Below are positions 3,565 through 40,847 of a DNA stretch of 40,951 nucleotides, piece after piece. This DNA is from Ectocarpus siliculosus (lineage: Eukaryota; Sar; Phaeophyceae; Ectocarpales; Ectocarpaceae), in assembly GCA_000310025.1 (NCBI GenBank), contig FN649741.1, positions 1 through 40,951 of the forward strand. Direction: 5' to 3'. Each line of letters begins with the position of its first letter. Positions within the stretch are counted from its first letter, which is position 1. A program made the position numbers and the translations under genes. Below the pieces are notes generated by a model. It was not told the DNA's origin. It made no database searches and saw only the letters and a list, made by a program, of their open reading frames with translations.

Positions 3565-3662
3565 ATTTTCCACAGCGCTTGAAACGTTGGGCGGAACGCT
3601 GCTGCAGCAGCCCCCCCGCTGTTGGACAACCACTGCCTCGGGAGCGATTACGCTGGTTGGTT

Positions 3663-3697
<35 letters not shown>

Positions 3698-3729
3698 TGG
3701 AGCTGTTGGGGCTGCTGGGTCTCTACCAT
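3565..3729 (-). pseudogene. orphan exon 1 of the membrane-protein family, enlarged Gln tract
   Basis: This 165-nt exon matches exon 1 of the gene copies at 18063-18176, 33776-33889 and 40734-40847, which are all 114 nt. It starts at an ATG in strong context (ACCATGG), encodes a Gln-rich N-terminus followed by the family sequence PTSVIAPEAVV, and ends at a GTGAGG donor in the same place as its relatives. The extra 51 nt are mainly CAG/CAA codons, giving runs of Gln. An upstream in-frame ATG at 3741 could add four residues. The conserved upstream region is also present. Exons 2-4 are not found further along the minus strand, so this is either a fragment of a copy or a gene whose other exons have diverged beyond recognition. 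Confidence 0.65.
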
Positions 3730-4040
3730 GGTGGCTGGCAAGATACAGAGTGAGTTAGGGTGATGAAAGCGACAACGGTGCGGGGGGTAGAAAGTGGAGG
3801 TGGAGAGTGAAAGAAAGGTGGTGCACGGTCAACGCCTCGAGAGGCTCGTTACCCTTCTGTCTTGCGCAACAGCAGTCGAACATATTTTGCTGCTGCTTCG
3901 GAAGTCGGAAGCGGTCCTGGGCTACACCATCTACGTACCAAATCTACGAAGATTGTGGAGGCGGACCTTGACAAAACATAGCGTCACACCAGCGCGCCAG
4001 CGCGCCAGCGCGTAGGACACGTACCAAATCTACGAAAAAG
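3730..4040 (-). promoter_or_regulatory. upstream region shared with other family copies
   Basis: Weakly but clearly similar to 18177-18400 and 33890-34110. It keeps two copies of the TACCAAATCTAC motif (minus strand GTAGATTTGGTA), at about 3938 and 4022, which also lies 180-230 bp upstream of the ATG in the intact copies. No TATA box is obvious. Confidence 0.4.
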
Positions 4041-4104
4041 CGGCCCGACCGATGTTTACTCCGCATATATACTGCTGACCTGCTGCAGCAGATAAGTTAT
4101 TATT

Positions 4105-4260
4105 GGTGTCTTCACACCTTCAAAACCGTCCCGATCTCTCTACCCAGCATTACACCTTCAGGTGTCCGTACTGATCAACGTACAGCAGTCGCACTTGACG
4201 CGGGTCGATTCCCGTGGTCACAAGTTGCGACGGATTCTGGGATCTATCTCGGATTTTATG
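4105..4260 (+). repeat. short SINE-like repeat, copy 2
   Basis: Same core as 3100-3235 and 34995-35148, with a roughly 12-bp insertion after GTACTGATC and without the full GTT run. It is the most diverged of the three. The following GACGGATTCTGGGATC resembles sequence beyond copy 1 (about 3025-3045), so the repeated unit may be longer than the core. Confidence 0.65.
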
Positions 4261-4634
4261 TTGTTTACGGTGACCACCTGGTACTACGGTTCACCGAGCA
4301 GCATACAGCAATATCTCCCCTGTCGCTAACAGGATCGACAAGACAGTTAGGTGGCCATCTCATATCTGACTGTATGCTATGTTGGGGATGTGTAGGGGAG
4401 TATGTTGGGAAAAATGATTGTTGTGGGCGGGAGGTACCCATGGTTGAGAGTCCACAACAGCACCCTACTTATACAATGTGTGTGGGCAAATTAAATTTTC
4501 CGGATATTATTGTTGACGGGGCACTTGGATGGTAATAATTGATGATCGGCGTGTATTGCCAGATTGCTGCATACGCGCTCCTGTTTTGTGACGCGTGATG
4601 CATCGTGAAGATAAGTATAGAGCTGTTTCTGTTG
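4261..4634. other. no gene recognised
   Basis: Unique-looking sequence of mixed composition. ORFs are short and show nothing I recognise. Confidence 0.5.
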
Positions 4635-5369
4635 TTACAGCAATACGCCGCACGCACGGGTTCCGTCTCCTCGTCGGTAACGTGTGGTTGTGATGACAAC
4701 GATGCGTGGTGTTTGGCGTGAAAGAATCCGCGGAGAGGCTGAGGGTGGGTGTGGTAGCGGTCCTCTCGTTGAGCATGTGTTCGACGCATGCGTTATAAAC
4801 GGGAATGTTCCTTGACCCGCGAGCGGGCAATCGTGACCCAGACCCAGACGCCAGTGCGTGCTGTATAGGAGGATTTGGAGAAGGGATTCAGTCGGCCCTT
4901 CCCCGGATCGACTATGAATCGAAATGTGTAATGGCTCAGATCTCGTAGATAATCGTTTGCGACCGAAGATAGACCAGTGGTTTGGTGAAACAGCGTTACT
5001 ATTACCATTCATACCACAAGACAACCCAACATCGCCAACGCAAGACGGACTCCCATTGGCCAAGCTCCCCGAAGGCCAAACGGTCATCGAACATAGTCTT
5101 GTTCCAATTACATAGTTCACCAATAGACTCCCGCCACGATATACCGCAAGAAACATTACAGACAGCAAAGACAGACGGAGGATAGTCCTACGGAGATACA
5201 AGTGGCTTCGATGGCGCCTTGCCCGTGGTCTTATCATACCGACTATACTGTACCTACTGGTAAATGTGGCTCTCGCACGTTTGTAATGCTTGGGATGGAT
5301 TTTCTTTTCGTTTCGGACGGTGCGAGAGTGATTGTTTACCAACAGCAACCTTTCAAAGACTGCCAACAA
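4635..5369 (-). CDS. hypothetical ORF, 244 codons
   Basis: The longest open frame outside the mobile elements and their immediate remains. Its middle (about residues 60-85) holds one hydrophobic stretch, TILRLSLLSVMFLAV, that could be a membrane anchor after a basic segment, as in type II membrane proteins. I recognise no domain. Length alone makes a chance ORF unlikely at this base composition, but there is no homologous copy in the window to test conservation. Shorter ORFs on the other strand (4924-5115, 5202-5510) overlap it and cannot be excluded. Treat as a candidate only. Confidence 0.22.
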   Translation of the reverse strand: MLAVFERLLLVNNHSRTVRNEKKIHPKHYKRARATFTSRYSIVGMIRPRARRHRSHLYLRRTILRLSLLSVMFLAVYRGGSLLVNYVIGTRLCSMTVWPSGSLANGSPSCVGDVGLSCGMNGNSNAVSPNHWSIFGRKRLSTRSEPLHISIHSRSGEGPTESLLQILLYSTHWRLGLGHDCPLAGQGTFPFITHASNTCSTRGPLPHPPSASPRILSRQTPRIVVITTTRYRRGDGTRACGVLL

Positions 5370-6678
5370 CGAATTGAAAACACTTCATTAGAGCCATACT
5401 CAAATATACCCAAGGGCCGAACTCAAGCTCTATCTAGGGACCATGAAATGAATGAAATTGTACCCTCAAGGCCGCTGACCTACCTTAGGACAAGGCCATC
5501 CACACTCTGAGTAGCTGGTCGATGGAAAACATGAACTATGCCGTTGGAAACGGCATCGTCTACGAAGTTGGGACGAGGGACGACCCTGACCGGCCCGGCC
5601 CGTCTCTCCCAGCGTGTCTATAGAAGAAGTGCATTCTCTGATATAGAATTTACACCCGTTGGGCCTTTTGGCGGTGCACGCTAAGTTGGTTGCCGCGCAA
5701 GTTATAGACAAATGTACATCTACCAACACTGCGAGGTATATTTAAACACAACGATAGAGTCTGTTTTACCAACACTTTTCGATATATCTAAATTCGTGTT
5801 CGTGTTGTCGACGTGCTCAAGAACTCATGACCGGACAGAGCGAACGGCGTGTGCTGAACAACCCTCCACTTTTAAACAACCAAAAATATCTGCAAGGTCA
5901 GGCCTAGAGCTTCGCGGCCCTGCATATCGCGTATTCCACAGCAGTATTCTAGTACCTCCTCCAACGCGGGGAAGACGTTAACAAGACCACGTTGAAGAAG
6001 GACGACCAACTTCAGGGGTGAGAGGGTGCCTCATATATACCTCGCTTCCCATCGAACACATCAGGTCGGTGAGCTACGGGCGAGCCGGAATGTCCTAATG
6101 TGCAGCACCGCGTGTCTTTCCTCGCGCCACGCACCGGTATTTGCGCATGATTCCCGAGTACGTCCTTGGAGGTCGTACGGGAGACTGTATCATGCTGTGT
6201 ACACTACCGGAAGACTGAGTATGATTTTAGTCCTAGGGCATGCATCATCCAGACCCGTGAACTGCGCCGCCGGTTGAAGCAGCGTAGGCTAGGAAACCTG
6301 CTCGGCGGGACGTGCGGGGGGGGGCATGCCGAGGGATTGCAGGCCAAGAATACTCAAAGAAATGCCTTCTTACCAGCACAGACGTCGGAGTATTTTTAGT
6401 GATTTGTCGAGGAATAGAGTTGAGAGTTATCTTGCTTGAGTGTCAAAAGGAGGGCGTTTAGGATCAGAGCGGAGCAGTTGTCATGGTTTAAACAAAGCTA
6501 GTAAATGTTCGCGTTTCCGGCTTTCTAATACACCAGGTACCCCGATCACGTATGGTTATCCTTAGCAACCAGAGGTTCGTAGCATTCCAAATATCCCGCT
6601 CACCGCCCCCAGAGACAAGGGTATTCTCCAGTGGTCAATCTCACCTCGCCTGCAGACTACCAACTGCCACCGAGTGTT
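5370..6678. other. downstream flank of gene copy 1, duplicated non-coding
   Basis: From about 5470 the sequence parallels 14450-15700 and 30130-31160, the regions downstream of copies 2 and 3. Shared blocks include TAGGACAAGG, the GTTGGGCC block near 5660 and the long block at 5940-6330. No open frame is kept across the three versions, so I read it as duplicated flank. Confidence 0.55.
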
Positions 6679-8197
6679 CTAGAGCAGTGACTCGCGCAAG
6701 GCACCGCTCTGTTCCCAGTTACCAACAGCCTTGAAGGCGAACACCAAGCCCACGAGGAAGGCGAGGGCCCCGAGGACAGGAGGGGTGACAAGTAGAACTG
6801 CTATATCGGCAGGTGTCGGCCCCATGTCGTCATCGTCGATCGTGACCAAGAATATCCTGACGGCAATTAAAGGCGTTCGGTAGCAGCGGCCGGAGAAGGG
6901 GGTGGCGGTGGAAGGGTGTGGGGCTGGGCGTTCGTGTCGCGACTGTCGGTTTCGAAGGAAATTGTAACGGTTTCGAACGGAGGAGCAACGTCCTCGCCCG
7001 TGATGCTGCTACACATACCTCCAATGACCCTAGTATACTATCGAGGCCCGTGTACCGTTTTCCGGCCGCAACCCGGCCAAACAATCACCAGCGAGCACGA
7101 CATCGAAAGGGTCGGCCTTGACGCGAAACAGATCATCATCACCAGTGATAGTGGCAGGTTGTTCTGCAACCTCTTTCAGTGTTGGCAAGAATACGTGTCC
7201 ACAACTCGAGGGTGGCATCGAAACATTATTTGGAGCTTTCACGGAATGCCTTCACATGCGGTGCATTGCGGCGCGATGCGTGAAGGTTTGAGACGGTTCC
7301 TGAAGCTCAGGGACGAGAAGAAACGACCGGGAGATGGGGCGCCCGGGAATAAGTGCCGGATTCAAAAATCTCAGCGACAACCCAACAATGCAACCTTAGT
7401 GACGTCAGTTACCATTGTCGACCAGTGCGAGTTACTGGTGGGAGTGGGAGTACCAACGGCGGTATTGGGGGAAAGACCGAGCACATCTGACCCACCGTTC
7501 GCACAATGCTTGGTAGACCATCTGATTCTTTGTAGTCTTCAGCAACACGCGACTGCTACCTTGAGGAAGTCAGAACAAGCCTAGTGTTCGACACGAATGT
7601 AGTATGAAACTGATATCATGCACTCACAATACGCCTGCGGCGCCAGCGTCGGAGATGAAGCTCAGAATGTACAGAACGCCAGCCGTCGTGTAAGTGCGTT
7701 TGGTAAACGAACAGAGAACGATGCTGCCCATGACAATGCCGATGATGTTCCCGACGTCCTGGACTGCCACAAACAATCGCGGAGAATCATGAGGGCGTGG
7801 GGCGGGGGAACGTTGAGCAACCGGTTTGGCCGTGAGTCCAACAATCAGGTGTACGTTGTCTCATGAAAGCCCAGAGCACACGAACACAATATTAAGACTT
7901 TGCAGCAGTTTTACTCGAAGCAGCGCAACTCTCTGTCTCCTTAAACTCAACAACTTCTTTGACACGTTTACGCCTTCTAAAACGTGGCTCGGTTGGCTGC
8001 AATCAAACTTGAGATAGCACTTATCGGGCAAAAGGAGACCTGTGGCGCTGTGAGAGAACGTCTAAAGCAACAAACACCGCAGTAAGAGAGCCTCGATATA
8101 CACAAGCAATTCAACGGAAAGAGGCGGGGAACTCACGCGGCCACGCGTAGAGAGTGATTATGTGGATGATGAGGATGATGATAGCGACCCTTCGCGT
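6679..8197 (-). pseudogene. membrane-protein family copy 1, exons 2-4, no exon 1
   Basis: Three exons on the minus strand match copies 2 and 3 in size, splice signals and phase: exon 2 at 8137-8197 (61 nt; CAG acceptor, GTGAGT donor), exon 3 at 7628-7763 (136 nt; GTGAGT donor) and exon 4 at 6679-6856 (178 nt, ending in TAG). All three are open. Exon 2 supplies the first membrane helix, exon 3 the second and third hydrophobic stretches (residue pattern GIVMGSIVLCSF, then AGVLYILSFI), and exon 4 a long hydrophobic segment ending in FAFKAVGNWEQSGAL. No Gln-rich exon 1 or conserved promoter is found to the right before unrelated sequence begins near 8400. The copy is therefore probably 5'-truncated, unless it uses a different first exon. 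Intron sequences are also similar to those of the other copies. Confidence 0.68.
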
Positions 8198-8884
8198 CTG
8201 GTGGTGTGCAGAATGACAGTGGAATGACACAATACAGGGGGGAACGGGGGTTAAGCATCGAAGAGCTGATGTCGCGACAAGCACCCATACTGACCGATGT
8301 CCTTCGTTGAAAATCGAGGGTATGTGTATGCCAGGAATTAGCTCCGAGAAAGAGATTAGGCAGGATGTTGTTGCGTGAAATTAATCCGTCCTGTGTCGAA
8401 AAGATACAGAAAAAGGTCACAACAATTCAAGCGGCCAGGGGGGACAAAAGGACGATTACGACTACGTAAGACTTTGACATCTGAGCCCCCCCCCCCCCCT
8501 CCCCTCCCTGCCAAGGCCGCGCCTCCTCCCGCTCATAAATCGCGCCGGGGTCATCGGCGCATAATTTGTTGGACACCACACACCACACACCCCTGATCCC
8601 CTTGCTTGGACCGTGCGGTCGGCGCTCAAACGCGCCCCGCCCTGGTTCTCTCCCGGGGCCGCTTTCCCGAACCAACAAGGCCTCCATCATGGGAGAATAA
8701 ACGAGATGCTGAGCGGGAGCACACATACGCAGGAGCGCGGTGCCAACGAAGGAGAGCCATAGCGCCGTGCTGTTGGTTGAACGCCGACGTAGTACCGGTT
8801 CGGTGGTGTCTCTGCACATTGATTTTTGGCGCGTTCTTTATCCCACGGCCTTGAAGCTTCGAGCTTGCATGCTTCTACGCACAT
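8198..8884. other. no gene recognised
   Basis: Up to about 8240 this is the flank of copy 1. The rest is unrelated sequence with a C run at 8486-8499 and short ORFs on both strands that mirror each other. Nothing recognised. Confidence 0.5.
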
Positions 8885-11342: not shown

Positions 11343-13574
11343 TCAATCTCCAGCATACCGCACCGGCTGTAGGCAGTGAACGATTAACCGTAGCCCCTCT
11401 TGCTGGTGTCGATGTTCAAGAAGCAGCGCACCCTGGCTCTTGTGGATAGTGATGCCGAAGGCGAGCATCAATGGTAATTGCGTTCTGCAGCGGGTATTGG
11501 AAGAGTCGTTCGAAGTACCGCTGCTTCTTCCGCGACCCGCGGGCGGTTGGTCGTCCATGGGGGCGATGGAGACTTGTGAGATCAGTTTGCCCTTCGCCCC
11601 ACCCCCTTCGTAGCGGCCCTAGAAGGTAATGAGGACCCCTGTAATTCTATACGCGAACCCACACGACGACTGGCAGTTCTGGCAGCGCTTGTTCAACCGC
11701 CCACTGCATATGCACCACTCCCCGATGGCTCCGCTGGCAAGGTCGGCCGATACCCAAACGCTGCTGTTGATCCCGAACGCTGTTGTTTTGAACACACTCG
11801 CATCTACGGCGAAGGAGATATGCGGCTGAAAACCTCTGAATCTTTTGGAGGACACTGCACCGTAGCCAGGGATGGTGTGCGTCACTTTGTTTCTCGCGAT
11901 GGGGGCTCCAAGAGAGGTCAAACACGGCCAGTTCCACTTGCCGGCGGCTGCGTGTGCATGTGGAGAAGATATGGAGAGCGTCGTCGAAGCTTTCACGCTC
12001 TACAACCCCCTACGGAGGTAGTGAACCTGTGCGCGAGAACGTCCCAGGCGGCTTCGGTCTGCATGCCCTCGGCGACACGCAGCAGTGAGTCGCGGAAGTC
12101 GGCCTGCTTCGGACCAAGTTTGCGCATGACCTGCGTGAGTTCGACAGCGTCGTTCATCGCCAACCACGCCTGGAGTTCTTGGAAGCTGAGGCCGACTGTC
12201 GAAGGTGTCCGGCTTCACAACGGACTAGCTCCGACTGGAGGAAGCTGGACTGGGTCGCCCATGAGGTTGATGCTCGGTCCTCAGAAGACGTTGAGGTGGG
12301 AGTTCTAACCAACCCTCTCGCCTCCACGCCTCCACGCCTCCACGCCTCCGACCTGTTTTCCGCTAGCTCTAGTCAGGCCGAGAATTTCCTGCCCCACCAT
12401 GGAGAACTCGTCTACGAGGATGAAATCGACGCCAGCCATCCGCTGCTGCTGGTCCCCGCAGGCTGCCTCCGTTATGTGGCTGAGGCCGAAAGAACGGTGG
12501 CCCTGTACGGGAATCCTAGAACCGCTGTGGACGGTCTGTAGCAGCGACAAGTGAGTATTTTGGTTGGAGGGCAGGAAAGATGTCGGAGCGAGTCGTGGGA
12601 ATGAACTCTTTAAGGATATATTCAGCGCGTAGGTTGGCGGGCAATGGAGCACCTCTGTGGACGCAAACAGTCTTTCCGGTGCCCGCGGTTCCAGTGAGCA
12701 ACAAACGAAGAGGAGCCGTGAGCACCGGCAGGGGCCCCATCGGCCTCGCGCCGTTGACTCCGCGGGTCACTTGATGAGCTGCCGCCCGGTAGTTGTCGAG
12801 GCTCGCCGCGTGTTCTTCCAACAGGCGTACAGCGAGAGCCTGTTCCTCGTTGAGGACTGGCACCGGAACCACAACCGCATCTGTGGAGGTGGGGGCGGCG
12901 ACGGCGGTACTGCCTTCCCCGACTCAGGATCTGGAGTCGTCGCGCACTCCTTGTGCCACTCATTGCGACTGGCACCAGTCGGGGTTGACGCCGTCGTGGC
13001 CGTCATTCCACCGCCGACGAGTTCGTCGTCCCCTGGCACCCCCCCCCCCCCCTGGTTCCCACGTCCACTCCTAGGAAGTACTTCTTAAACGCCTGTATCA
13101 TCTCCCAGACGCACCACTTTGCGATATGGGGGTTGGCGATGAGCAGGCGGGTGCGCTCCTGAATGGGACGGACATTTCTTTTGCCCACGCTCGCCTCAGG
13201 CGCCTCCGCAGCCCTTGGCATGAGGCGATAGAGGTCAGCCATGTGGTGATCAGCGGCGGAGTAAGTGGCGAACGTTGACAGAGTCGGAAGGTGGTCTATA
13301 GTGTCCTCGAGCTTGCCCTCCCACTTCGTCGAAAGTCGTCCGTCCCGGGTACATTTGCGACGTACCGTACCGTGATACTCATGAGCTGCTGAACAGTTTT
13401 GTCGCTTACTTCCCTAGGGTCAAGACTGGTAAGGACCGGGTCGTTGTTGAGGGAGACACGGCCCTGTGCCCTAGTCGTCTTTCTGAGCCGCATGTCCTGC
13501 GCGCAGTAGCGGAACATCCTGTGGCTCGTAAAACGGTGGTGAGTCAGGCGCTCCTCGCTCCTATCGACCCTCAA
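11343..13574 (-). pseudogene. Helitron-like replicase/PIF1-type helicase, broken
   Basis: Read on the minus strand in several frames, this follows a Helitron/PIF1 protein from N- to C-terminus. 13310-13410 encodes VRYVANVPGTDDF and 13065-13250 encodes PTLSTFATYSAADHHMADL, then RLLIANPHIAKW, a pattern known from Helitron-like N-terminal domains. The helicase follows: Walker A GTAGTGKT near 12680, Walker B FILVDEFSMVG near 12410, GDPVQLPPVG near 12250, a stretch with LTSLGAPIA at 11870-11930, and LAFGITIHKSQGA near 11440. At least four frame changes and several stops separate these parts, so it is not functional. I do not see the two-Tyr Rep nuclease motif, so the call could also be a non-Helitron PIF1-like protein with the same N-domain. 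The region ends against duplication unit A at about 13.6 kb. Confidence 0.78.
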
Positions 13575-14574
13575 ATCTCATGAGATGAGTGAAGACGTCA
13601 ACCTCCCGAATTATCGGAACACTTTTTTATCGGGTTCGCTCTGTGAACTATGCATGTTGCGTGTGTGTGGGTCTTCGAGTTCACCTCAGCTCTCTGAATT
13701 CTGGAGTCGAAAGGTCTCATCTCTGTCAGTTACGTCTTCTCTCTGATGTGTCTCCTCGCTCTCCTTCTCTTTCTATCTTGGTGGGTCCACCCGCCCATCA
13801 CTGAATCACGACGAGTCTATCATCTTCTATTCCCGCTAGCGGGCTCGTTCGGTCTCCGAAGTTACGAAATTACCGTGTACTTGTATAGTACCGTCACAGA
13901 CAGACTCGTTCTTGTAGGCCTCATCTGCGCTGACTACTCAATTGTGTTTCTCAGCCTCTAGGTTTTTTTTCCCTCTCATGCCCTGACAGCAGTTGCAGCT
14001 TGGCAACACGTCCGAGTTTCCTCTTTCTCTTTTTCTGACACTTGTTTCTCTCTATAGGGGCACCATGCATCGCTTCATCTATCCCATCTACCACGGCCGA
14101 AGCGCCAAAACCTTCTCTACTCGAGATTCTACTACCTTGCACACGACACAGCGCAATGGTACTTTACAAAAAACGTACCATAGTTGATTCAACATCCCGC
14201 AAACAAACTGAACATAGAGCGGGCCGATCGTTGGGGTCTGTTCATCGACCCATTACCCTAAAGAGTGTGCCTGGGGTACCCTCCACGTTAAACGTTGCCT
14301 TGGAATCGCTCCCATTTGGGGTGGCGCGAAGCACCAAACTACATATAATACTGAAAATGTTGTTGTTGTTCTTGCTGTTGTTGTTGCAAGACTTCCAATA
14401 ACATTTCATGCCAAGTAGACCCACCGGTCGTCTATGTAGACCCAATCTGCCACTGAGCTACCGTAGGACAAGGCCACCCATACTCTGAATAGCGAGCTGG
14501 TCTCGACATAAACATAAACTATGTACGTCATTGCCGTGAACAGCACCCTCTAAGAAGATATTTCAACTCTATTG

Positions 14575-15721
14575 TTGTTGTTGTAAGGCTTCCAACAACG
14601 TATACAATTCCTACACTATTCCATTTCATGCAATGCCAATCAAGTAGACCCAAGGGCCGATCCATGTGGAAGCCCATGACATGCCCGCAATCTTTACCCA
14701 CAAGGCTACTGGGCCAGCGTACGACAAGGGCGTACGTAACAAGTTAATAGATTTGAACATGAACTTGTACGCCATCACGGTAAACAACATCCTGGACGAG
14801 GAGGGAACGGAGGACGCCTTCAATGCTCTCCCAGGGTGCGCTATGATATACTCGGAGTACCGTATACTGGTATGTACTGTTTCGGACAAAAAATCACATC
14901 CGTTGGGCCTGTTGGCGGCGCACTCTATTTACTAGTTGCCGCTAGTATAACTGTAAATACTGAATGATACATGTAGCGCACGCCTATGCACATTCCAACA
15001 ATATGTCCACACGCGGATAATGCTGAGAATACTTCCACAAGACCACGTTGAGAAAGGACGGCCAACTCCAGGGGTGAGAGGGTGCCTCATATCCACCCCG
15101 CTTCCCATCGAACACATCAATCAATGCGGTGCGCTACGCGCGCGCCGAAATGTGCAGCCTGCCCTGACAGTGGAACACTGCGTGTCGTTCCTCGCATGCC
15201 CCACCGAGAGTCTCTACGACTCCCGAGTTCCTTGACGCTTGTACAGGAGACTATGCACACTGGGGGACTAAATATGATATGATGTTTCGTCCTGGGACAT
15301 GCATTGTCCAGATCCATGAACTGCGCCGGTTGAGCAGGCATAGGCTAGGGAACCTGCACGGCGACACGTGCGGGGTTGCAAACCGGGGAACAGCAGGGCC
15401 AGGATACTCAACAAAACATTTGCTTGCCAGCGAGCGTCGGAGCATTAAGCGTTTTGTCGAGGATAAGATTTTCAGTTCTCTCGCTTGAGTTGTCAAGGAT
15501 CATATTTGGGGCAGTTGTCCTGGTTTGAACCATGATCGCATTTTCCGCGTTTCCGGCTGTATCCTCAACCAAGGACTCCAAGTAACATGCGGAATTTTTA
15601 CACCTTAGCAAGCAGAGGTTCGTAGCATTCCGAATGTTCCGCTTACTGCATCCGGAGACAAGGTTCTCCTCCAATAGCCGGTTTCACGTCACCTGCAGAC
15701 CAGGAACTGCCGCCCAGTATT
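14575..15721. other. downstream flank of gene copy 2, no supported gene
   Basis: Duplicated at 29995-31160 and more weakly at 5470-6670. An 89-codon plus-strand ORF at 14666-14935 looks protein-like but is broken by deletions in the 30-kb copy, so I do not call it. The sequence from 15015 to 15370 is the best conserved part in all three versions. Confidence 0.5.
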
Positions 15722-18176: not shown

Positions 18177-18400
18177 GGTTGCAAGACAAGTACTCCGGAG
18201 AAGTGAGCTAGGGTGGCGAAAGCGATAACGTTGTTGTTGGATGAAGATTGGTGGTGGGGAATGGCAGGTGGTGTACGCCTGGAGCAGCTACGACTTGTCG
18301 AAATGGAGTGGAGAATGATTGGAAAGGTGTCGGTCACGTGTCGGTGCTGTCGAATGTCGGGCTATTGTACCAAATCTACCAAATCTACCAAATCTACGAA
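18177..18400 (-). promoter_or_regulatory. conserved upstream region of copy 2
   Basis: Well conserved with 33890-34110 and with the start of the region right of 40847. It contains an ACTCCGGAG-type palindrome just upstream of the ATG and three tandem TACCAAATC units (about 18369-18398), about 195-220 bp upstream of the start. Conservation between copies could reflect recent duplication rather than function. No TATA box seen. Confidence 0.45.
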
Positions 18401-27550: not shown

Positions 27551-27869
27551 ACCTCCGTCCCCCGACGACGGGCCCCCGATGACCGATCAATATCCTGATC
27601 ATAGGCGAACAAGTGGGTATGACGACGCAAGGACAAATAATATATGGGGAACGTCAGAACGATGACGCAGTAAACGCGTCACGGTATGCACCTGCCTACC
27701 AACACGCGTGGATGACTAACGAAGCATGCATATCTGTGGCACCCGCCACTGTCACATGTACATAGTGCCACCCCTTGATCCACACACCGGTGCGAACGAT
27801 GCACCACCCAAAGTCCACACCCCGGGTGTTTTGGGTTGGTTTGTGTGCCGTGTGTCTTTCCACCAAATT

Positions 27870-28610
27870 ATTTGGTTCCACCGATTTGTCCATGCACGGA
27901 ATCCACATTTGGGCGCGCACAACCGGCCCTTGCCACATATGGTATGTGTCCTGACGACCTCGTATCGTCTCGCAGTCGCACCAGCGACCTACATGCCATA
28001 CGCCCGGCGTGCGGTTCCTGACCATTACGGATCATCTTCAATGTCCGCCTGGGTCTACCATCAATAGGCCGTGAGCCGGCAACCATACGCTCCAGCGCAA
28101 CCAGCTCTTTATCTATTGACTTCTTCCGTTGATCGTGCCGTTCCACCGATTATTCCCAGCACCGCGATCCACCGTCGCGCGTGCACAACCGGCCCATGTA
28201 AGATTCCGTATGTGTCATGACGGCCGCACGCCGTTACACAGGCGCACCAGCGCCTACATGCCATACATCTTGCTGTTGGCTCCTGATCACCACGACTCAT
28301 CACATGACGAGACGCCACCATCAATAGGCCGCGAGCCGGCACCATACGCTCCAGCGCAACCAGCTCCATATCTATTGATTGTTCTTTGTTTATCGTGCCG
28401 TTCCACCGATTATTCCCCGCACGACTACCCACATTCGTGCGTGCCCAACCGGCCCATGTAAGATTCCGTATGTATGTGCCATGACGGCCTCATGCCGTCC
28501 ACATTCGCACCAGCGACCTACATGCCATACATCTTGCGTTCGGCCCCTGATAACTACGACCCATCATCGATTAGTCGTTATCATGTCCAACGATCGGTCA
28601 TCGTACTCTT
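27870..28610. repeat. three tandem units of about 262 bp upstream of Gag
   Basis: Units begin at GTTCCACCGATT near 27873, 28139 and 28400 and share many blocks, such as ACAACCGGCCC, CACCAGCG, CTACATGCCATAC, CCATCAATAGGCCG and CATACGCTCCAGCGCAACCAG. They lie 320 bp upstream of the DIRS-like Gag start on the transcribed strand. Tandem repeats in this place could be promoter or leader units of the element. Not coding. Confidence 0.82.
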
Positions 28611-29990
28611 CTCATCCGGTCCACATTGACTTCTGGAAAACCTCGTGGGAAAAAAAAAACCCGTCCATCAAGTGTACACGACATGGCAAGCAGCAATAAC
28701 AACCGAAATAGATTTGTTTTTGTGTGTGGGTTTGGCACTGGGTTTGGACGGCAGTTTTGTGTGTCACCAATCCACCACCCTTGTCGCACTGCGACAAACA
28801 CCCCAGACGACGTGTCTCGTCTCGCGATCAGTATTTCTGATAATCACACCATAGTGTCTCTGACACTACGACCGGGAAGCACAACGCGTTTTCGATGCGG
28901 TCCTGTCTTTCGCATCATTCTCATAGTCGATGCGTTGAAGTTTAAAAATTGGAACCGCAGTCACATCATAACCGCACGCAGCACCCCGAATTCCACCTTC
29001 GGCACGGTGCCCTGTAATGCGACACCCATAACCGGCCGCGGCGCCTCTCCCGCGCACACCAGCACACGCACCGCGGCCACCTAACCACATTGTCGGTGAG
29101 ACATAAATATATGCTGTATGCATACATAGGAACGCGAACACGCGCTCGTACCGCTCTATGTGACCATTACTCAGCACACCAGAAGTGATCGGGTGCTTCG
29201 GACATGCTCGATGATATCTGCTGTCGCATGATGCAACTCGGCCGGTACCCCGCGCAAGCGAACGACATCGAGGGAGTCGCGGCGCCTACCGCATGCACAC
29301 CCGCGCACACCCCGCGGTCACACCAGTAACCGGTGGCTTCTTTCTTCGGACTCGCTTGCCGAACACGCCCAACAGCAGTCAACAACATCGATACAGCATG
29401 CCCACACCCGCCCGCCACTTCACATATGGCACGTGAATCCTTACAGCCTCGGCCCCCGTGTGCCGTATACAATAACAACATTTGTCATTGTGTGCCCTAA
29501 CTGCTGTCTGCGAAAGCCAGCTCTCGCTGTGATGCTGCTGGGATAACACGCCACATCACAGTCAGTCGCACGTACCAAGCGAAGTCGATGTGTTCCAGTC
29601 TCGACGTAGCGACTCCTCCCGCCCAGCGGTAGTGGCCTCCGCCCCGTCGGAAAAGACGACAACACTAGCTCCCGCAGCAGAATGTCCTAAACCAGCAGCT
29701 GGCAGAGTGTTGTCCAATCGTACGTCTAGCAGTCCCTGTGCTCCAGCACTGCTGATGCTCCAACGTGATCGAGCGCAAACGGAATGTCCTGCGGGCAGCT
29801 GCCTTATCTCGGTGCGCATGCCTCCTCTCCTGCAAGCACGCAGACATACTCTTTGCCATATAGTATAAATGCCCACTCCTTCTACCAACTCCAATAAACA
29901 CCAATTTCAGACTCCTCCCCCCTTTGGTAGGATCCATCTGAAATATTCGCTTTATTCGTTCTGCTCGACGAATAAACTTTCCTTCTATGG
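28611..29990. other. no gene recognised; right part of the insertion
   Basis: ORFs up to 152 codons overlap on both strands without recognisable content. On the plus strand a TATAAAT at about 29864 and an AATAAA at about 29895 lie close together, which could be part of a promoter or LTR. I could not find a second copy that would support this. Confidence 0.4.
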
Positions 29991-31164
29991 TTATTGTAAG
30001 GCTTCCAACAAGGTATTTGTATACAATTCCTATATATACTATTCCATTTCATGCAGCGCCAATCAAGTAGACCCAAGGGCCGATCTCCGTGGAAGCCCAT
30101 GACAAAGTCGCAATCTACACCCACAAGGCTACTGGGCCAGCGTAGGACAAGGGCATCCATACTCTGAGCAGCAAGTTGATAGATATGAACTTCAGGAGGG
30201 AACGGGGGACGCCTTCAATGCTCTCCGAGGGTGTGCTACTATATACACTGTATATATATGTCCTGTTTCTGACAAAATGGGTCACATCCGTTGGGCCTGT
30301 TGGCGGCGCACGCTATTTACAATAGTTGCCGCACTGTTTCACACGAAGGTACAACTGCAAACACTGGAGGATACATGTAACAAAGCGTCTACACAATCCA
30401 TATACACGCGCTTATGCTGAGAATACTTCCACAAGAACACGTTAAAAAAGGTCGACCAACTCCAGGGGTGAGAGAGCACCTCATATCCACCTCGCTTCCC
30501 ATTGAACACATCAATCAATTCAGTGTGCTACGCGCGCGCCGAAATGTACAGCCTGCCCTGACAGTGGAACACTGCGCGTCGTTCCTCGCATGCCCCACCG
30601 GTAGTCTTCTACGACTCCCGAGTGCTTCTTTGACGCTTGTACAGGAGACTATGCATGCTGGGAGGCTGAATATGGAAGGGGACGTATTGTCCAGATCCAT
30701 GAACTGCACCGGTTGAAGCAGCAAAGGCTAGGCAACCTGCTCGGCCACACATGCGGGGGTGCATGACGGGGAATAGCAGGGCCAGGACACTCAACAAAGC
30801 ATCGTCTTGCCGGTACAAGTGTCGGAGCATTAATTGCTTAATCGATGGTATAACTTGGAAACTCGCTTCTTGGATTCTCTCGCTTGAGTTGTCAAGGAGT
30901 GGTGCAGAATCATTTTCGGGGCAGTTGTCATGGTTCGAACAAAGCTCGAAATTTCTACGTTTCCAGCTTTCTGCGTAATCAAGGACTCCACACCACATGC
31001 AGTGTTATTCATCCGTGACAAGCAGATGTTCGTAGTATTCCAATGTTCCGCTCACGGCACCCAGAGAAAGGGTTCTCCTCCAGTGGCCGACTTCACCTCA
31101 CCTGCAGACCAGACACTGCCGCCGAGTGTTCTACATCGACTGGCAACGCGCGCAAGGCACCACT

Positions 31165-33889
31165 CTATTCCCAGTTGCCGACAGCCATGAAAGCGAACAC
31201 CGAGCCCGCGAGGAAGGCCAGACCCCCGAGGAGAGGAGTGACGATCAATAGCAGTGCCTGACCGATAGGTATACTGCCGTTTATGGCTTCGTCACTGCTG
31301 CTGTTGAGCACGACCATCACGAAGATCCTGTATGTAGTTCATGGACGGGTGGCAAGGCGTGGACGTCTTTATTGCGGGTTTCGGTTTAAAAAAAGGGAGC
31401 TATGGCGGTTTCGAAGGAACCCCGTGCAACCACTGTCCGATCGAAACCTCGCCGAAAGGTGACCAGCGAGCAAGATACCAGAAGGGTCGACCTTGAGCAA
31501 AGTACACCATTATCACCAGCGCCAGTAGCACCGTCGTTTGGCAACAATTCCAATCATGGCAAGGAATCCCACACACTTGTTTCGCCACCCCACTTTGACA
31601 TGATCCCGCGGCAACACACGAACTGAGAGTCTCTATACACGTGTTTCTGTCACCCTGTGCATGTCCGTTGTTTCCTTGCCCCCTCCCCCATACTGCTGTG
31701 TTTAGGTGGGACCGCGTGCCTCAAAACGATGTCAATTGCGATATTCTGGCTCCTTGAAAAGGTGTGACGTAAACAGCACATATTACACGGGGAAACCACG
31801 TCGGCAAAAGCTGCAGTTACCCGTCCCAGACACGCCAGCAATAAGTCAACAAGTCGTGCAGCTCGTTTATGAACGGAGGACCCTCCTAGAAGAATACTTA
31901 CGCTGGGTCTCGCCGTTTCTTCCATCGTCATTGTATGGTAGACGTGGGTGCGATCGTTTCGAACTCCAGGCATCAATGTTCCGATACCGCCAAGAACACG
32001 ACTCCACGACTCGAGGAACACGTGGCAACACTACTGAGAGCTTACGCAGACAGAGGCCTTCACGTGTGGCTCATTGCCGCGCGCGATGTTTGAACGTTTC
32101 AGAAAGTCCGTCAACTTCGGGAATGAAAAGGGCAAAGACGACGGGTAGGTGGGGAGCCCGCAAATACGTACCGTTTTCCAAAACCTCAACAACAACCCCA
32201 ACGATACACTCGGCTGACGGCAGTTACCACTATCAACCAGTGCGGGTTACTAGCAGGAATTACAACGGCGCTACTTTGGGGAAGGACCATGCACTCTAGA
32301 CCCACCGTTTGCATCATGCTTGGTACTGTAGATCATACCTCATTTTTGGCAGTCTTCGGCAACTTACGTCTGCATTGCATACAGTACCTTGAGGAAGTCA
32401 GAGGTAGTCTCGTACTCGTACAAACAAGAATGTAGTTTGAAAATCATCTCATGCACTCACATTATGCACCCGGTACAAAGGTCGACGATGAAGCCTAGAA
32501 TGTACAAAATGCCAGCCGTCCTGTACGTGCATTTGGTGAGCGAACAGAGAACGACGCTGCCCATGACAATCCCGATGGCACTCCCGATGGATGAGACTGC
32601 CACAAACGTGCAGGGGCATGGTGGAGTAAAACGGAGGATCGTTTCGCAACCGTTTCGGCCGTGGGTCCAACCATCATGTGTACGTTGTCGCATGAAGCAC
32701 TGAACGGTACACAAAAGCAATTGTCCTCGCAGCATCACAACTGTAGGTAGGACTGCGGCATGTTTAAGAAGCACGCTAGTCAGCCCGCTGACTAGTAGTC
32801 TAGTGGTCATCGTGCTTCTCAACAAAAGATGATGCCCGAGTCCGTCAAGCTTTCTTTCAAGCCACGAACAGTTTCCGCCAAGGTTGCCATCCGTGTGATC
32901 AGTGTGGTCTTGCCCTATCAATGATCGGTATACCATGTACTTATTAGTACAACAAGAGATTCATCCATGATTCATCGGCATATTTTGCTAAGTCCAAGAC
33001 TTTTCCCATAGACTATACGTATATATAGGGCGCAAATAAAATCCTAGAAGGATAAAATACTCAAGGCGATATTCGAACCCCGGACATTAGCTTTTTTTGA
33101 CAAAAGCACGATGACCACTACTGTAGACTACGAAGTACTATTTAGTCAGCGTTGACTAATAGTATCTGCCTCCGACAACTCCAAGAACAAACCAAATCCG
33201 CATACGCCTCTCTAATGGGCAGTTGGCTGCAATTACACTTGAAATGATACTTGTCGGCCGAAGAGAGCCTGTAGCGTGGTGCGAAGACGTCTGCCGCCGT
33301 AACAAGCAATAAACCGAGACAGTGTTACTTGTAGCCTTGGCACACCCAGGCAAATCAACTGAAATGGGGTTCCAAACTCACGAGGCCACAAGAAGTAGAG
33401 AGCGATGATGTGGATGATGATGATGGCGATAGAGATCCTTCGCGTCTGACGGTGTGGCGGAATGAAAGTGGGACGACGCATTGGAGAGGGGGCTATGGTT
33501 TAAGTATTGAACACAGCTGCCAAATGACAAGCACTCAAGTTGAGAGATGGCCATTGAGGGTGTGACAGCCCAGCACACCCAGAGGAAACAAACAACTCGG
33601 ATGGCTACATGTACGCAGCTACAGTACCCATCGATGCACACATGCATACAGTACATAGACTACAACAATTACGGATTGTATGCATACGAAAACATTCTTT
33701 CAAAGTTTCAGATCGATCAAGGCATCGCCGCCGTCATCTGCACCAGTGGTACACACAGCAGCAGTTTGTCCTCACGTTCTTCACAGCGCTCGAAACGTTG
33801 GACGGAACGCTGCAGCAGCCCCCTCGTTGTTGGACAACTGCCTTGGGAACAACGACGCTGGTTGGTTGCTGCTGGTGCTCTACTACCAT
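31165..33889 (-). CDS. four-exon polytopic membrane protein, copy 3 (intact, shorter C-terminus)
   Basis: Spliced model: exon 1 33776-33889, exon 2 33382-33445, exon 3 32461-32596, exon 4 31165-31327; 477 nt, 158 residues. Splice sites and phases equal those of copy 2. Exon 2 is 64 rather than 61 nt, adding one residue. Exon 4 stops earlier (TAG after VGNWE), removing ten residues found in copy 2. N-terminus HQQQPTSVVVPKAVVQQRGG; hydrophobic stretches are in the same places; the acidic loop is changed (NSSSDEAINGS). Intron 2 has grown to 785 nt by insertion of a tRNA-like element (about 32750-33165), which should be harmless if spliced out. Differences from copy 2 are spread over exons and introns, so the duplication is not very recent, yet all frames stay open. 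Role unknown. Most likely a membrane protein of four helices. Confidence 0.66.
32750..33165. mobile_element. 0.4-kb insertion with tRNA-like inverted arms
   Basis: Missing from intron 2 of copies 2 and 4. The ends are inverted arms, 32776-32820 and 33107-33158. Each begins with its own small palindrome (CTAGTCAGC..GCTGACTAG on the left, TAGTCA..TGACTA on the right) and continues into TAGTCTA and GTGGTCATCGTGCTT, the latter looking like a tRNA D-arm. The inside is AT-rich and has no ORF. It could be a foldback or MITE-type element, or two opposed SINEs. Borders are accurate to about 10 bp. Confidence 0.65.
33060..33138 (-). other. tRNA-Asp-like sequence, degenerate
   Basis: On the minus strand an A-box-like TAGTCTACAGTAGTGG is followed by an anticodon-arm-like GCTTT..AAAGC with GTC (Asp) in its loop, and by a B box GGTTCGAATATC. 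The loop is one base too long and the T stem does not close, so it is not a working tRNA gene. It may be the tRNA-derived head of a SINE. Confidence 0.4.
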
Positions 33890-34110
33890 GGTTGCAAGAC
33901 AAGTACTCCGGAGTCGAAAGCAACAACGTTGTGGGGTGAAGATTGGCGGTGGAGAGTGGCAGATGGTGTACGCCTCGGGCAGTTACGACTTGGTCGAAAA
34001 TGGGAGTGGAGAATGATGGGAAAGGTGTCGGTGTCGGCTGTCGGTTGTCGGCTGTTCGAATGTCGGGCTGTTGTACCAAATCTACCAAATCTACCAAATC
34101 TACCAAACGA
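33890..34110 (-). promoter_or_regulatory. conserved upstream region of copy 3
   Basis: Parallels 18177-18400. The sequence next to the ATG (TACTCCGGAGT, CTTGCAACC) and the TACCAAATC triplet run (about 34075-34105) are kept. The same region recurs inverted at 34370-34625. Confidence 0.45.
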
Positions 34111-34660
34111 ACGGTCCCGGGACCGAGGTGATGCTTTTTCCAAGAAATTGACGAACGGCGAATTGACGTTGTTGCCTTGATTTTTTTTGTGGTTGTTGTA
34201 CCGGGTGTACCAGGGGGATGTCACGAATTTCTTCGCTCATCGCCTCGCCCCCAGTCTCACTCCCTCCTCTCTCTTGCACTCCACCGGGACCGTCCTCAAC
34301 ACCCCGCTTCATCGTCCCTAGACTATGAATAACCCCGCTTTTTGTGGGGCTGTTTGGCAAAACAGATCACCTCGGTCCGGGACCGTGCGTTCGTAGATTT
34401 GGTCCATTCTCTAGATTTCTAGATTCGTATGTACAACAATAGCCCGACATTCGAAAGCAGACACCACCGACGCCTTTTCCACCTTTCTTCACTCCCATTT
34501 TCGACCAAGCCGTAGCTGCTCGAGGCGTACACCACCTGCCACTCCCCACACCGTCAATCTCCACCCCACAACGTTGTCGCTCTCGCCACCCAAGCTCACT
34601 ACTCCGGAGTACAGACGTGGTTGTCTTACAACCAATAGAGAACCAGTAGAAGTTAACCCG
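33895..34660. repeat. inverted duplication of the gene upstream region
   Basis: The left arm 33895-34140 and right arm 34370-34625 are diverged reverse complements around a spacer of about 230 bp. The right arm thus points a promoter-like region to the right. Where the family start ACCATGG should follow, it reads ACCAATAGAGAACCAG, so the ATG and a few bases are deleted and no exon 1 frame remains. Confidence 0.75.
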
Positions 34661-35239: not shown

Positions 35240-36250
35240 CGCTTCCATGGAAGTATATATCAGCTTCCATGGACGAAGTATACATCAGCTTCCATGGAAG
35301 TTGATCTACCTCCTCCATGGACAATGACACCTGTTCCATGGAAGCTACACGTTTCGCACTTCCATAACCCTAACCCGAAGCGCGAAACCGCGAAACGACG
35401 CTTCCATGGAAGCGATATTCACTTCCATGGAACTAAAGATATGAAATATAGATGTGCCACTTCCTCCATGGAAGTTAACTTCCACGGAAGTCCCACGGAA
35501 ATCCCCATGGAAGAAGTGGAATAACTCCATGGAAGTCGAACCTTAGGCTTCAATGGAAGCTATTCAAAACAGGTTTAGGGCAGCTTCCATGGAAGTATTC
35601 AGTCTCGGGTAGCTTCCGGGGTTAGGGTTAGGGTTAGGGTTAGGGTTAGGGTTAGGGTTAGGGTTAGGGTCGGGAAGCTGGAATGACTGTATGTCCAGAC
35701 GCTTCCTTCGTGGTGATGCTTTGGGGTTAGGGTTAGGGTTAGGGTTAGGGTAGGGAAGCTGGAATGACCACATGTCCAGACGCTTCGGTGGATGTTGCTT
35801 TCATGGAATTTTCGGTGCGTCCACGGAAGTCGGTTTCGACCTCTCTCACCCACTTCCTCCATGGAAGTTGCTTTCATGGGAGTTTTCGTGCTTCCATGAG
35901 AGTAGCAGAGACTCTGTCAAGCGACGAGCTTCCATGAAAGTAGTACTTCCATGGGAGCTCGTCGCGCTTCCGTGGAAGGCCGAAATGCAACTTCCATGGA
36001 AGCAACGAGCGGTTGATATCGGGTGCTTCTATGGAGGAAGCGGATTTCATGGAAGCTGGAGCCCGAAACAGACGAACAGATTCCATAGAAGTCAATTTGA
36101 CTTCCATGGAAGCCACTAACATCCTTCCATGCAGGAAGTCGATACTGACTTCCATGGAAGTATCAATGAATCCCATCGAAGAGGTAACCACTTTCTCCAT
36201 GGAAGAAGTGCTTCTTCCATGGAAGTCAACTTCGACTTCCTTGGAAGCTT
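35240..36250. repeat. dispersed array of CTTCCATGGAAG palindromes
   Basis: At least eight exact copies of the perfect 12-bp palindrome CTTCCATGGAAG and about twenty variants with one or two changes lie in about 1 kb, with spacers of roughly 10-50 bp that are otherwise mostly unlike each other. The motif appears in all three frames, so ORFs across it (rich in SMEV, FHGS and LPWK) are by-products. The whole block lies between two halves of a Helitron-derived sequence (CTGATAGAGGTCAG at 35150 and AATGGCGGAGGAAGTG at 36289), so it was inserted or grew there. Confidence 0.92.
35618..35751. repeat. interstitial telomere-like TTAGGG repeats
   Basis: About eight units of GGGTTA at 35618-35670 and four more at 35723-35751. 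Each run is followed by GGGAAGCTGGAATGAC and TGTCCAGACGCTTC, so runs and flank are one duplicated unit. They lie inside the palindrome array. The runs match a TTAGGG-type telomere, but the sequence continues normally on both sides, so this is not a chromosome end. Confidence 0.92.
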
Positions 36251-37267: not shown

Positions 37268-37704
37268 TGTCACGGTAGCATGAACGGGCGCTAATACTGA
37301 GGATCATTCCATTTCACGATGGTTTGAGGAGGGCTAGGGTATACCCCAGGGTGTACCTGAATCATTGGCGGAGCCCTTCTGGAGCTCCGCCTCAACACGT
37401 GTTTTGGGTGATCGCTCACTGTTAACACGGCCAATCTCGGAAGAGGAACTTTGACCCACATCGCTAAGCAGCAAACCAGTTGTGAGTCAATGCAGGAGGT
37501 AGACCCCCCTTGCTAGTCCCTCCTTGATTAGTCCCCCCTTGTTAGTCCCCCCCTTGACTCAAATGGTAAGAGTCCATGAACCTGACCATGAAATGGATGA
37601 AACTGACCATGAAATGGAAGAAACTAATTGAACCCTAGCCAGTGCTTGTTACGCTAACACATGAGTGAGCTACCTTAAGCAATAGCGCTATAACCGCTGT
37701 GACA
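37268..37704 (+). repeat. left LTR
   Basis: Starts TGTCACGGTAGC and ends CGCTGTGACA. Contains a hairpin (GGCGGAGC, loop, GCTCCGCC near 37370-37395), three tandem TTAGTCCCCCC-like units near 37510-37555 and a doubled ACCATGAAATGG near 37585-37620. On the minus strand GGGTTCAATT resembles a Pol III B box, but no full tRNA fold is clear. Confidence 0.9.
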
Positions 37705-38480: not shown

Positions 38481-38573
38481 ATACGGCGGCCAAAGTACTA
38501 ACGGCCGTCATTCGGGGCCGATGATTTCAGCAATGTAACATCGACGTCGAACACACCGGCATCCGTCCTCTCG

Positions 38574-38691
38574 AGGTTAAAATCCATTTTTTGTGGTTTA
38601 ACCTGGGGAGGGCGGCATCCTCCCTTTTCAGATCTAAATTCCCGGCGTGGTTTGATCTGAGGAGGGAGAAGCGCACGTTCTGCTACCTCCT
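38574..38691 (+). other. four consecutive hairpins before the right LTR
   Basis: In a row: AGGTTAAA with TTTAACCT (38574-38604), GGGAGG with CCTCCC (38606-38624), CAGATCTAAA with TTTGATCTG (38629-38659, one bulge), and AGGAGG with CCTCCT (38660-38691). They are nearly contiguous and end 40 bp before the right LTR. Such a run is unlikely by chance and suggests a folded RNA region. Confidence 0.7.
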
Positions 38692-38730
38692 GAGCATTTT
38701 GTGTTTTTCAACACATGTATGCTGGGGGGG

Positions 38731-39167
38731 TGTCACGGTAGCATGAACGGGCGCTAATACTGAGAATCATTCCATTTCACGATGGTTTGAGGAGGGCTAG
38801 GGTGTACCCCAGGGTGTACCTGAATCATTGGCGGAGCCCTTCTGGAGCTCCGCCTCAACACGTGTTTTGGGTGATCGCTCACTGTTAACACGGCCAATCT
38901 CGGAAGAGGAACTTTGACCCACATCGCTAAGCAGCAAACCAGTTGTGAGTCAATGCAGGAGGTAGACCCCCCTTGCTAGTCCCTCCTTGATTAGTCCCCC
39001 CTTGTTAGTCCCCCCCTTGACTCAAATGGTAAGAGTCCATGAACCTGACCATGAAATGGATGAAACTGACCGTAAAATGGAAGAAACTAATTGAACCCTA
39101 GCCTGTGCTTGTTACGCTAACACATGAGTGAGCTACCTTAAGCAATAGCGCTATAACCGCTGTGACA
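38731..39167 (+). repeat. right LTR
   Basis: Same length as the left LTR and identical except for about five bases (for example TGAGAATC for TGAGGATC, GGGTGTACC for GGGTATACC, GACCGTAAAATGG for GACCATGAAATGG). Directly preceded by the purine tract and followed by the target duplication CTGC. Confidence 0.9.
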
Positions 39168-39210
39168 CTGCATCACAGCATTGATAGATTATTGCATATT
39201 ATGAATATTG

Positions 39211-39827
39211 TGTGATACCCTGGCATGGTGGCTTAGAGGCTCTGTGTCGTCGACGTTAGTCGAGGTGATGACGCGTGCGAGAGGGTAGCCTGGAAGACGA
39301 GAATCCTTCCACGGTATGAAGAAGATGCTGAGATATTGGAACACTGGCGCTTAGTTAGGTGGCCAACACAATCCGGAAGGATCACACGAGAGGTGAGCTA
39401 CTCGACGACCACGCAGAGAATTCTGCGGGAGTAATAATTCCTCCTCATACACATACGCGTTACATTCGATCCGACATTCGAACCGACCCATATGAGATCT
39501 ACGATATACAAGGGCAGTGCTACTGAACATTGACCTATACCGGCTATGTGCTAACATTCCCACAACACTCCCCCTCAATGAAAGTTGCTCTGAAATGTAC
39601 GAAACAAATATTGATTCAATCAACCAATGTTATTCATTCGTTTCTTGCGTATAAACTCAAGCCGTTTCTTGCGTTTCAACCACAAATTAATAATACACCA
39701 AGTGATATTTCATGTTTTACACGTGCTACAATACATCCATGCGCTTGTAAAAAGCGCCTGCTGTTGTTTCCTGCGTAAACCAAAGTACCACAACTTTCAA
39801 TCCTACATGGATGGCTCGTTCAACTAG
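39211..39827 (-). mobile_element. Copia-type 3' LTR remnant with polypurine tract
   Basis: On the minus strand the sequence CATTGAGGGGGAG at 39568-39580 is followed directly by TGTTGTGGGAATG, the usual polypurine tract and LTR start of Copia elements. The LTR would run from 39567 towards about 39211, where the plus strand reads TGTGATACC, giving about 357 bp. No second LTR is available to confirm the end. The 250 bp right of the tract would be the end of the internal region, but I see no RNase H motif there. It abuts the truncated gene copy 4 at about 39828. Confidence 0.4.
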
Positions 39828-40847
39828 TATCGGCGATGAAGCCTAGAATGTACAGAACGCCAGCCGTCGTGTAAGTGCATTTGTTGAACGAACAGAGAAC
39901 GACGCTCCCCACCACAATCCCGATGGCACTCCCGATGTATTGGACTGCCACGTACAGGGGCATGGGGGAGTAAGACGGAGGTACGTTGAGCAACTGTTTC
40001 GGCTGTGAGCCCAATCAATCATAATGTGTACGTTGTCGCATGAAGCACTGAACAGTGTACACAAAAACAACAGTACGAGCTTGTAGCACCTCAAAATTGT
40101 CCTCACAGCATCACAACTCTCTGCCTCCGACAACTAACTCCAAGAACACACCAAATCCGTACACGCCGTTCTACTGGGCCAGTTGGCTGGGATTGAACTT
40201 GAATTGATACGCTTGTGGGCCGAAGGGAGCCTGTAGCGTGGTGCGAAAACGTCTGTCGTAACAAACAACAAACCGAGACAGGCTTGGCACACCCGGGTAC
40301 ATCAACTGAAAAGGGGTTTCCAAACTCATAGTACCACGAGTAGAGAGCGATGATGTGGATGGTGATGATGGCGATAGATCCTTCGCGTCTGCCGGTGAGT
40401 GGAATGAAAGTGGGATGACGCATTGGCGAGGGGACCAGGGCTTGCTAACGCCGAGCACCCATACTGAGCGATGGCCATCGGGGGTGCATGTGTAGACAAT
40501 CCAGCACACCCAGAGGAATCAAACAACTTCGGAGGGTATCTAGACTCTACATGCATGGTTGTCTACTGCTGTACTGCTGTACAAGATACACATAGACTAC
40601 ATGCGGAAGCGTCGGAGTGTATGCACATACAGCAGTAGGAATAGGAAACTCTTTCGTTCAAAGATTCAGATCAATCAAGGCATCGCCGTCCTCTTCTGCA
40701 CTCGTGGTACACACTACATTAGTTTGTCCTCATATTCTTCACAGCGCTCGAAGCGTTGGACGGAACGCTGCAGCAGCCCCCTCGTTGTTGGACAACTGCC
40801 TCGGGAACAATGACGCTGGTTGGTTGCTGCTGGTGCTCTACCACCAT
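39828..40847 (-). pseudogene. membrane-protein family copy 4, broken
   Basis: Exon 1 (40734-40847, 114 nt) is intact and starts in ACCATGG, but its donor reads ATGAGG instead of GTGAGG. Exon 2 (40330-40388) lacks two bases compared with copy 3, which shifts the frame, and its donor reads ATGAGT instead of GTGAGT. Exon 3 begins normally at 39944 after GGCAG and is open, but is cut off near 39828, before the donor, by Copia-like sequence. Exon 4 is absent. Read through intron 1, exon 1 meets a stop four codons later (after MRTN). The upstream region continues to the window edge and is similar to that of the other copies. This is the clearest dead member of the family. Confidence 0.75.

Follow-up and report, generated by a model that had tools for sequence, protein, structure and literature searches.

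The stretch analyzed here (the window) spans bases 1-40,951 of C16, an 8.06-Mb contig of the brown alga Ectocarpus siliculosus, whose genome assembly comprises 189 Mb in 492 contigs. The EsV-1-7 cysteine motif (Pfam PF19114), whose expansion is typical of brown algae, is abundant in this genome: all 150 candidates that were scored, from 880 first-look candidates, proved to be matches, and none of 14 control genomes responded. This window contains five remnants of one four-exon gene, all on the minus strand. Comparison of these remnants with one another and with relatives on other contigs indicates that they probably belong to a genuine family of tetraspan proteins, that the window probably holds a tandem array, decayed in part, of a eukaryotic gene whose product would be a small four-helix membrane protein, and that the wider family appears to be under purifying selection.

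The gene array in the window

The gene remnants, numbered along the window, are as follows.

3565-3729 (-): orphan exon 1 of 165 nt; poly-Gln tract expanded, GT donor intact
6679-8197 (-): copy 1, exons 2-4 intact, 124 codons plus stop; exons 8137-8197, 7628-7763, 6679-6856
15722-18176 (-): copy 2, complete predicted gene of 167 codons; exons 18063-18176, 17659-17719, 17082-17217, 15722-15914
31165-33889 (-): copy 3, complete predicted gene of 158 codons; exons 33776-33889, 33382-33445, 32461-32596, 31165-31327
39829-40847 (-): copy 4, pseudogene; exon 1 40734-40847, exon 2 ~40331-40387, exon 3 truncated near 39829

The four-exon model proposed in a first-pass annotation of this DNA is borne out by copies 2 and 3, whose exons 1-4 measure 114, 61, 136, and 193 nt and 114, 64, 136, and 163 nt, respectively, with GT/AG at all three introns, phases 0/1/2, intact splice sites, and open frames of the predicted 167 and 158 codons. 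The C-terminus of copy 3 is shorter than that of copy 2 because a TAG in copy 3 occupies the position of a CAG in copy 2; just one exon gap, of 4 nt, has a length not divisible by three, and its position behind this earlier stop upholds the companion claim that indels in the intact copies spare the exons or preserve their frame. Copy 1 retains splice sites and stop in exons 2-4 (61/136/178 nt), and tblastn found no exon 1 upstream of it. In copy 4, the donors of exons 1 and 2 have changed from GT to AT, exon 2 carries a 2-nt deletion, and tblastn did not find exon 4. The annotation had assigned one gene model to all five exon-bearing copies; the five copies stand, whereas all four exons are present in just two of them. 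Four-exon tblastn queries found no further copy in the next 7 kb of C16 beyond the window.

Self-comparison of the window revealed a repeated unit of ~4.7 kb, which can be followed around three of the copies.

5963-8446: region around copy 1 that resembles the other units; similarity ends ~250 nt upstream of exon 2
13734-18481: duplicated unit around copy 2, comprising the gene and ~2 kb of downstream flank
19572-34191: duplicated unit around copy 3, containing other DNA at ~19842-21492 (~1.65 kb) and 22077-29989 (~7.9 kb)

The array probably grew by duplication of this ~4.7-kb unit, and inserted DNA breaks it up. A DNA probe consisting of exon 1 plus flank gave four matches in the genome, all of them in the window, and missed the orphan exon 1.

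Relatives on other contigs and signs of selection

Our searches for family members covered the alga's own genome, and relatives outside it were sought in Pfam, NCBIfam, PHROGs, PDB sequences, and viral and prokaryotic collections. Genome-wide exon searches, the counts from which are lower bounds, found at least 11 loci on four contigs: the window has five, C353 three, C301 two, and C104 one, which makes six loci on three contigs outside the window. The exon 3 query reached C353 relatives at E = 2.5e-14 and 1.7e-7; reciprocal queries from the C353, C301, and C104 members led back to these loci and added no further contig of this genome at a significant E-value. Three loci have all four exons intact (copy 2, copy 3, and C353B); four have open exons and no identified exon 1 (copy 1, C301A, C301B, whose stop was not located, and C104); and four are degraded or partial (the orphan exon, copy 4, C353A, and a lone exon 4). 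The three loci on C353 are the following.

C353B, C353:6569-11437: four-exon gene, exons 156/64/136/187 nt, phases 0/1/2, intron 1 of 3.5 kb
C353A, L007 (C353) ~1637-3539 (+): decayed copy, exons 2-4 recognizable, exon 3 72% identical to the window copies; the one splicing tried gave no open frame
C353:13776-13952: lone exon 4

Over exons 2-4, the four comparable relatives are 29-41% identical to copy 2 (C353B 52/126, C301B 46/125, C301A 37/126, C104 38/124), and the window exon 1 matches that of C353B at E = 7e-6 in a small database. In C301A, C301B, and C104, exons 2 and 3 are a single 209-nt exon that runs through the predicted transmembrane segments TM1, TM2, and TM3, starts after an AG at the aligned position of the window exon 2, and has its 3' boundary at phase-2 intron 3, as in the window copies. 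Distant relatives therefore read straight through the point at which exons 2 and 3 of the window copies are predicted to be joined; short of transcripts, this is the strongest support for the predicted splice model. The locus is also a useful methodological example, in which fused exons of distant paralogues back an ab initio splice prediction.

Codon models were fitted to exons 2-4 of seven members on an assumed tree; C353A, copy 4, the orphan exon, and the lone exon 4 at C353:13776-13952 were left out of these models and of the underlying alignment A1, and the end of C301B exon 4 was set at a chosen position, which no stop follows at once. The ratio of nonsynonymous to synonymous substitution rates (dN/dS) across the seven members is 0.38 (likelihood ratio [LR] of 61.1 vs 1, p = 5e-15), and deep pairs give 0.21 (copy 1/C353B, p = 9e-6), 0.28 (copy 2/C353B, p = 5e-5), and 0.57 (C301A/C104, p = 0.033). 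Exons carry fewer indels than expected from the rate in flanking DNA, with 2 observed vs 9.5 expected between copies 2 and 3 (P = 0.004) and 1 vs 8.9 between copies 2 and 1 (P = 0.0014); frame-breaking ones number 1 vs 6.8 (copies 2-3, behind the stop of copy 3), 0 vs 5.8 (2-1), and 1 vs 5.8 (3-1). Exons are also better conserved than non-exon DNA between copies 2 and 1 (77.3% vs 67.8% identity, p = 2e-4) and between copies 3 and 1 (74.5% vs 64.7%, p = 4e-4).

Several observations weigh against a constrained family represented in this window. A two-ratio model separates the window clade, at 0.76, from the rest of the family (LR 16.98, p = 4e-5), for which the value of 0.24 is approximate, the long branches being near saturation; the ratio of the window clade is indistinguishable from 1 (p = 0.22), as is that of copies 1-3 together (0.75, p = 0.21). 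None of the close pairs departs from 1 (copies 2-3 0.91, 2-1 0.71, 3-1 0.67), and the NG86 bootstrap range for copies 2-3 is 0.51-1.65. Between copies 3 and 1, the exon indel deficit is not significant (3 vs 7.5, P = 0.061). The first indel count placed part of the 15-nt shorter exon 4 of copy 1 outside the exon, and the recount of gap runs on the codon alignment (copies 2-3 1 vs 7.2, P = 0.006; 2-1 1 vs 8.8, P = 0.0015; 3-1 2 vs 7.4, P = 0.022) uses a protein-guided alignment, in which gaps fall in frame by construction. Exon and non-exon identity are alike between copies 2 and 3 (84.6% vs 82.4%, p = 0.27). Exon 1 was not identified for copy 1, C301A, C301B, or C104; that of C353B was assigned by position and similarity only and, as a genome query, found nothing but itself below E = 0.04, the window exon 1 not being among its matches.

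Close-pair dN/dS, at 0.67-0.91 for the pairs of copies 1-3 and not different from 1, was rejected as proof of coding. The dN/dS comparison suggested in the first-pass annotation, which had taken a value near 1 over the exons as evidence against a gene family, gives a divided answer: the seven-member family is constrained (0.38), whereas copies 1-3 alone, at 0.75-0.76, return just such a value. Because copies 1-3 do not depart from 1, the case for a real family rests on its distant members and on indel suppression; conserved intron positions in distant relatives, the fused exon 2-3 in three of them, and purifying selection across the family favor the annotation's claim that the family is real. 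Taken alone, dN/dS of the recent duplicates would have read as no constraint. We read the family as old and constrained and its local duplicates in the window as apparently recently relaxed; the window copies would then have lost most of their amino-acid constraint, with purifying selection acting on the wider family.

A possible, if doubtful, extension of this relaxation is that no window copy still works, all of them being pseudogenes or close to it; the working members of this old family would then lie on other contigs, and the frames of copies 2 and 3 would persist through recency. The window clade's dN/dS of 0.76, above the rest and not different from 1, fits this view, as do the clear pseudogene copy 4 and the orphan exon (two of the five remnants), the lack of an identified exon 1 in copy 1, and the earlier stop of copy 3. 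It is harder to reconcile with the intact splice sites of copies 2 and 3 and with frame-breaking exon indels that stay below the flanking-DNA expectation in all three copy pairs.

Protein features and comparison with known families

The exons map onto the protein in an orderly way: exon 1 encodes a Gln-rich N-terminal tail with a CCSVPS-type stretch, exon 2 TM1, exon 3 TM2 and TM3, and exon 4 a net-negative loop followed by TM4. Hydropathy profiles show four hydrophobic peaks in all seven proteins, in line with the four helices first proposed, which are predicted rather than taken from a structure. Thirteen columns of alignment A1 are invariant among the seven proteins, which diverge to ~30% identity; these include H50 (TM1), C76 (near the end of TM2), and D97 (TM3), all within predicted helices of copy 2. 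An internal duplication relating TM1-2 to TM3-4 was considered and is unsupported, 12 of 60 column shuffles having scored as high or higher.

The TM3-TM4 loop varies widely in length and is negative in every protein (net charge -1 to -11). The charges suggest that both ends of the protein are cytosolic and that this acidic, fast-changing loop faces the outside or the lumen. Such a topology leans mainly on the acidic loop and on a basic stretch before TM1, because the TM2-TM3 turn, net positive in five of the seven proteins, is neutral in C301A and net negative in C104, a mixture that makes the positive-inside argument incomplete. Between copies 2 and 3, 23 of 57 loop bases differ vs ~561 of 3187 in non-exon DNA (p = 7e-5); part of this excess probably reflects in-frame indels that a gap-free comparison scores as substitutions, and synonymous sites in the loop are raised as well, so we claim no positive selection.

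Consistent with the first-pass annotation, which did not recognize the family, no significant match emerged in Pfam, NCBIfam, PHROGs, or PDB sequences. Across the seven members, Pfam gave nothing below E = 0.042 (Herpes_UL43, one member) and NCBIfam at best E = 0.0075 (one member, to a model for cytochrome d ubiquinol oxidase subunit II), the latter in our reading a hydrophobic chance match. The best PHROGs match had E = 0.021; a single protein found no PDB sequence at E <= 5, and a profile reached E = 0.42 at best. Two scans of viral contigs (13 and 154 pattern-matching stretches) and one of prokaryote genome contigs (95) yielded no stretch that tblastn confirmed. A search of full-text literature, by titles and abstract openings, found no published description of such a four-helix family. 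We infer restriction to this lineage only from the lack of a Pfam family, the searches having spanned its own genome and the viral and prokaryotic collections. Membership in the YrhK-like family (PF14145) was rejected as sub-threshold: two of the seven members match weakly (best E = 0.074), the match of copy 2 covers residues 136-160 in the TM4 segment, and its 13.2 bits are about half the curated cut-off of 26.1 bits. A PF14145 search of the alga's genome gave no match at E <= 1.

Tetraspan scaffold groups include MARVEL, tetraspanin, and claudin/PMP22 proteins, with which the present family shares small size, four predicted helices, putatively cytosolic ends, and an exposed TM3-TM4 loop. None of the seven members matches the MARVEL or tetraspanin Pfam models at E <= 1, and Claudin_2 appears in one of seven at a nonsignificant E = 0.97. 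Claudin/PMP22 proteins carry a W-GLW-C-C motif in the TM1-TM2 loop, which in this family, at a few residues, is too short to hold it. The tetraspanin hallmark is a large TM3-TM4 loop that bears a CCG motif and additional cysteines; in the seven aligned proteins this loop has no cysteine and hence no CCG. As the likeliest mode of action we posit, with low confidence, that the protein might be a tetraspan membrane organizer that packs via small-residue-rich faces of TM2 and TM4, its Gln-rich tail serving as a cytosolic contact and its acidic loop as an exposed surface.

The conserved polar residues lend themselves to a different, rather unlikely, reading, a small ion, proton, or metal permease in which the invariant His, Cys, and Asp would make up a site for coordination or proton relay, with the acidic loop gathering cations. 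H50, C76, and D97 are indeed invariant in all seven proteins, lie within predicted helices of copy 2, and are accompanied by a net-negative TM3-TM4 loop in every member; yet the comparison draws on just seven sequences, all of one genome, a buried polar residue may serve a structural role, and no transporter model matches significantly, the weak matches (OATP, Bestrophin-like, MFS; E >= 0.2) each involving a single member. Improbable on present evidence is the more ambitious notion that these are brown-algal tetraspan surface proteins with a diversifying acidic loop, whose array could constitute a rapidly diversifying recognition system, e.g. toward viruses, parasites, or gametes; its grounds are the loop differences between copies 2 and 3 and the variable loop length across the family.

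Brown algae are multicellular organisms whose lineage arose independently of those of plants and animals. If expressed, the tetraspan family would add to a brown alga a protein family with no recognizable domain, in which three invariant intramembrane residues and a fast-changing outer loop provide handles for function. As discoveries go, a family of small orphan membrane proteins is modest; evidence that the invariant residues are functional or that the outer loop is diversifying would raise its importance.

Genomic setting and mobile elements

The array lies among other elements, including these.

3-2366 (-): copia-type gag/pol open frame, 788 codons long and truncated where the contig ends; Pfam Retrotran_gag_2 and Pol_BBD
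22077-29989: retroelement-like insertion of ~7.9 kb that splits the copy 3 unit (self-comparison and Pfam)
35619-35670 and 35724-35755: interstitial (TTAGGG)n arrays

A rival view, that a transposable element carries these exons as passengers or as gene fragments, is very improbable, even though elements lie around and within the array (copia-like at 3-2366, retroelement-like over ~7.9 kb at 22077-29989): copy number is low (11 loci in 189 Mb on four contigs, a lower bound), the exon-1-plus-flank probe has no match outside the window, and two scanned frames in and beside unit 1 have no Pfam match and no mobility domain. We judge the family to consist of host genes.

A chromosome-end location of the array is plausible. 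Transposons are described as enriched towards chromosome termini in Ectocarpus (PMC12477816). Like gene arrays in transposon-rich termini, the present one is tandem, decaying, set among transposons, and located at a contig end; unlike them, it adjoins a contig start formed by a copia-like element rather than by telomere repeats. Exact six-unit TTAGGG arrays occur on many contigs of the genome.

Further features of the window concern the inserted and intervening DNA. At the copia-type element, the zinc knuckle of the 3-2366 frame scores slightly below its cut-off, and a 153-nt piece is present twice (362-514 and 2398-2550, 97% identity). Within the ~7.9-kb insertion, a frame at 24850-25899 is weakly reverse transcriptase-like (RVT_1 E = 0.014), a CCCH-finger frame at 26131-27513 is gag-like by our own reading, and a frame at 22843-23997, which gave no Pfam match, has what we take to be a tyrosine-recombinase-like look; a stretch related to this insertion (67%) lies on contig C104. 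The ~1.65-kb insertion downstream of the copy 3 gene includes a repeat in three tandem copies with ~220-bp spacing (20710-21295). Frames at 11346-12923 (-) carry helicase-like motifs, a P-loop GTAGTGKT and FGITIHKSQG, the latter known from Pif1/Helitron helicases; in Pfam, one has weak P-loop/AAA matches and the other none. Two direct repeats of 437 bp (37268-37704 and 38731-39167), 98.9% identical and 1463 bp apart from start to start, are possibly the terminal repeats of a small recent element. Finally, near-matches (<=1 mismatch) to the palindrome TTCCATGGAA number 28 in the window, where 1.5 would be expected, and 24 of them cluster at 35243-36246.

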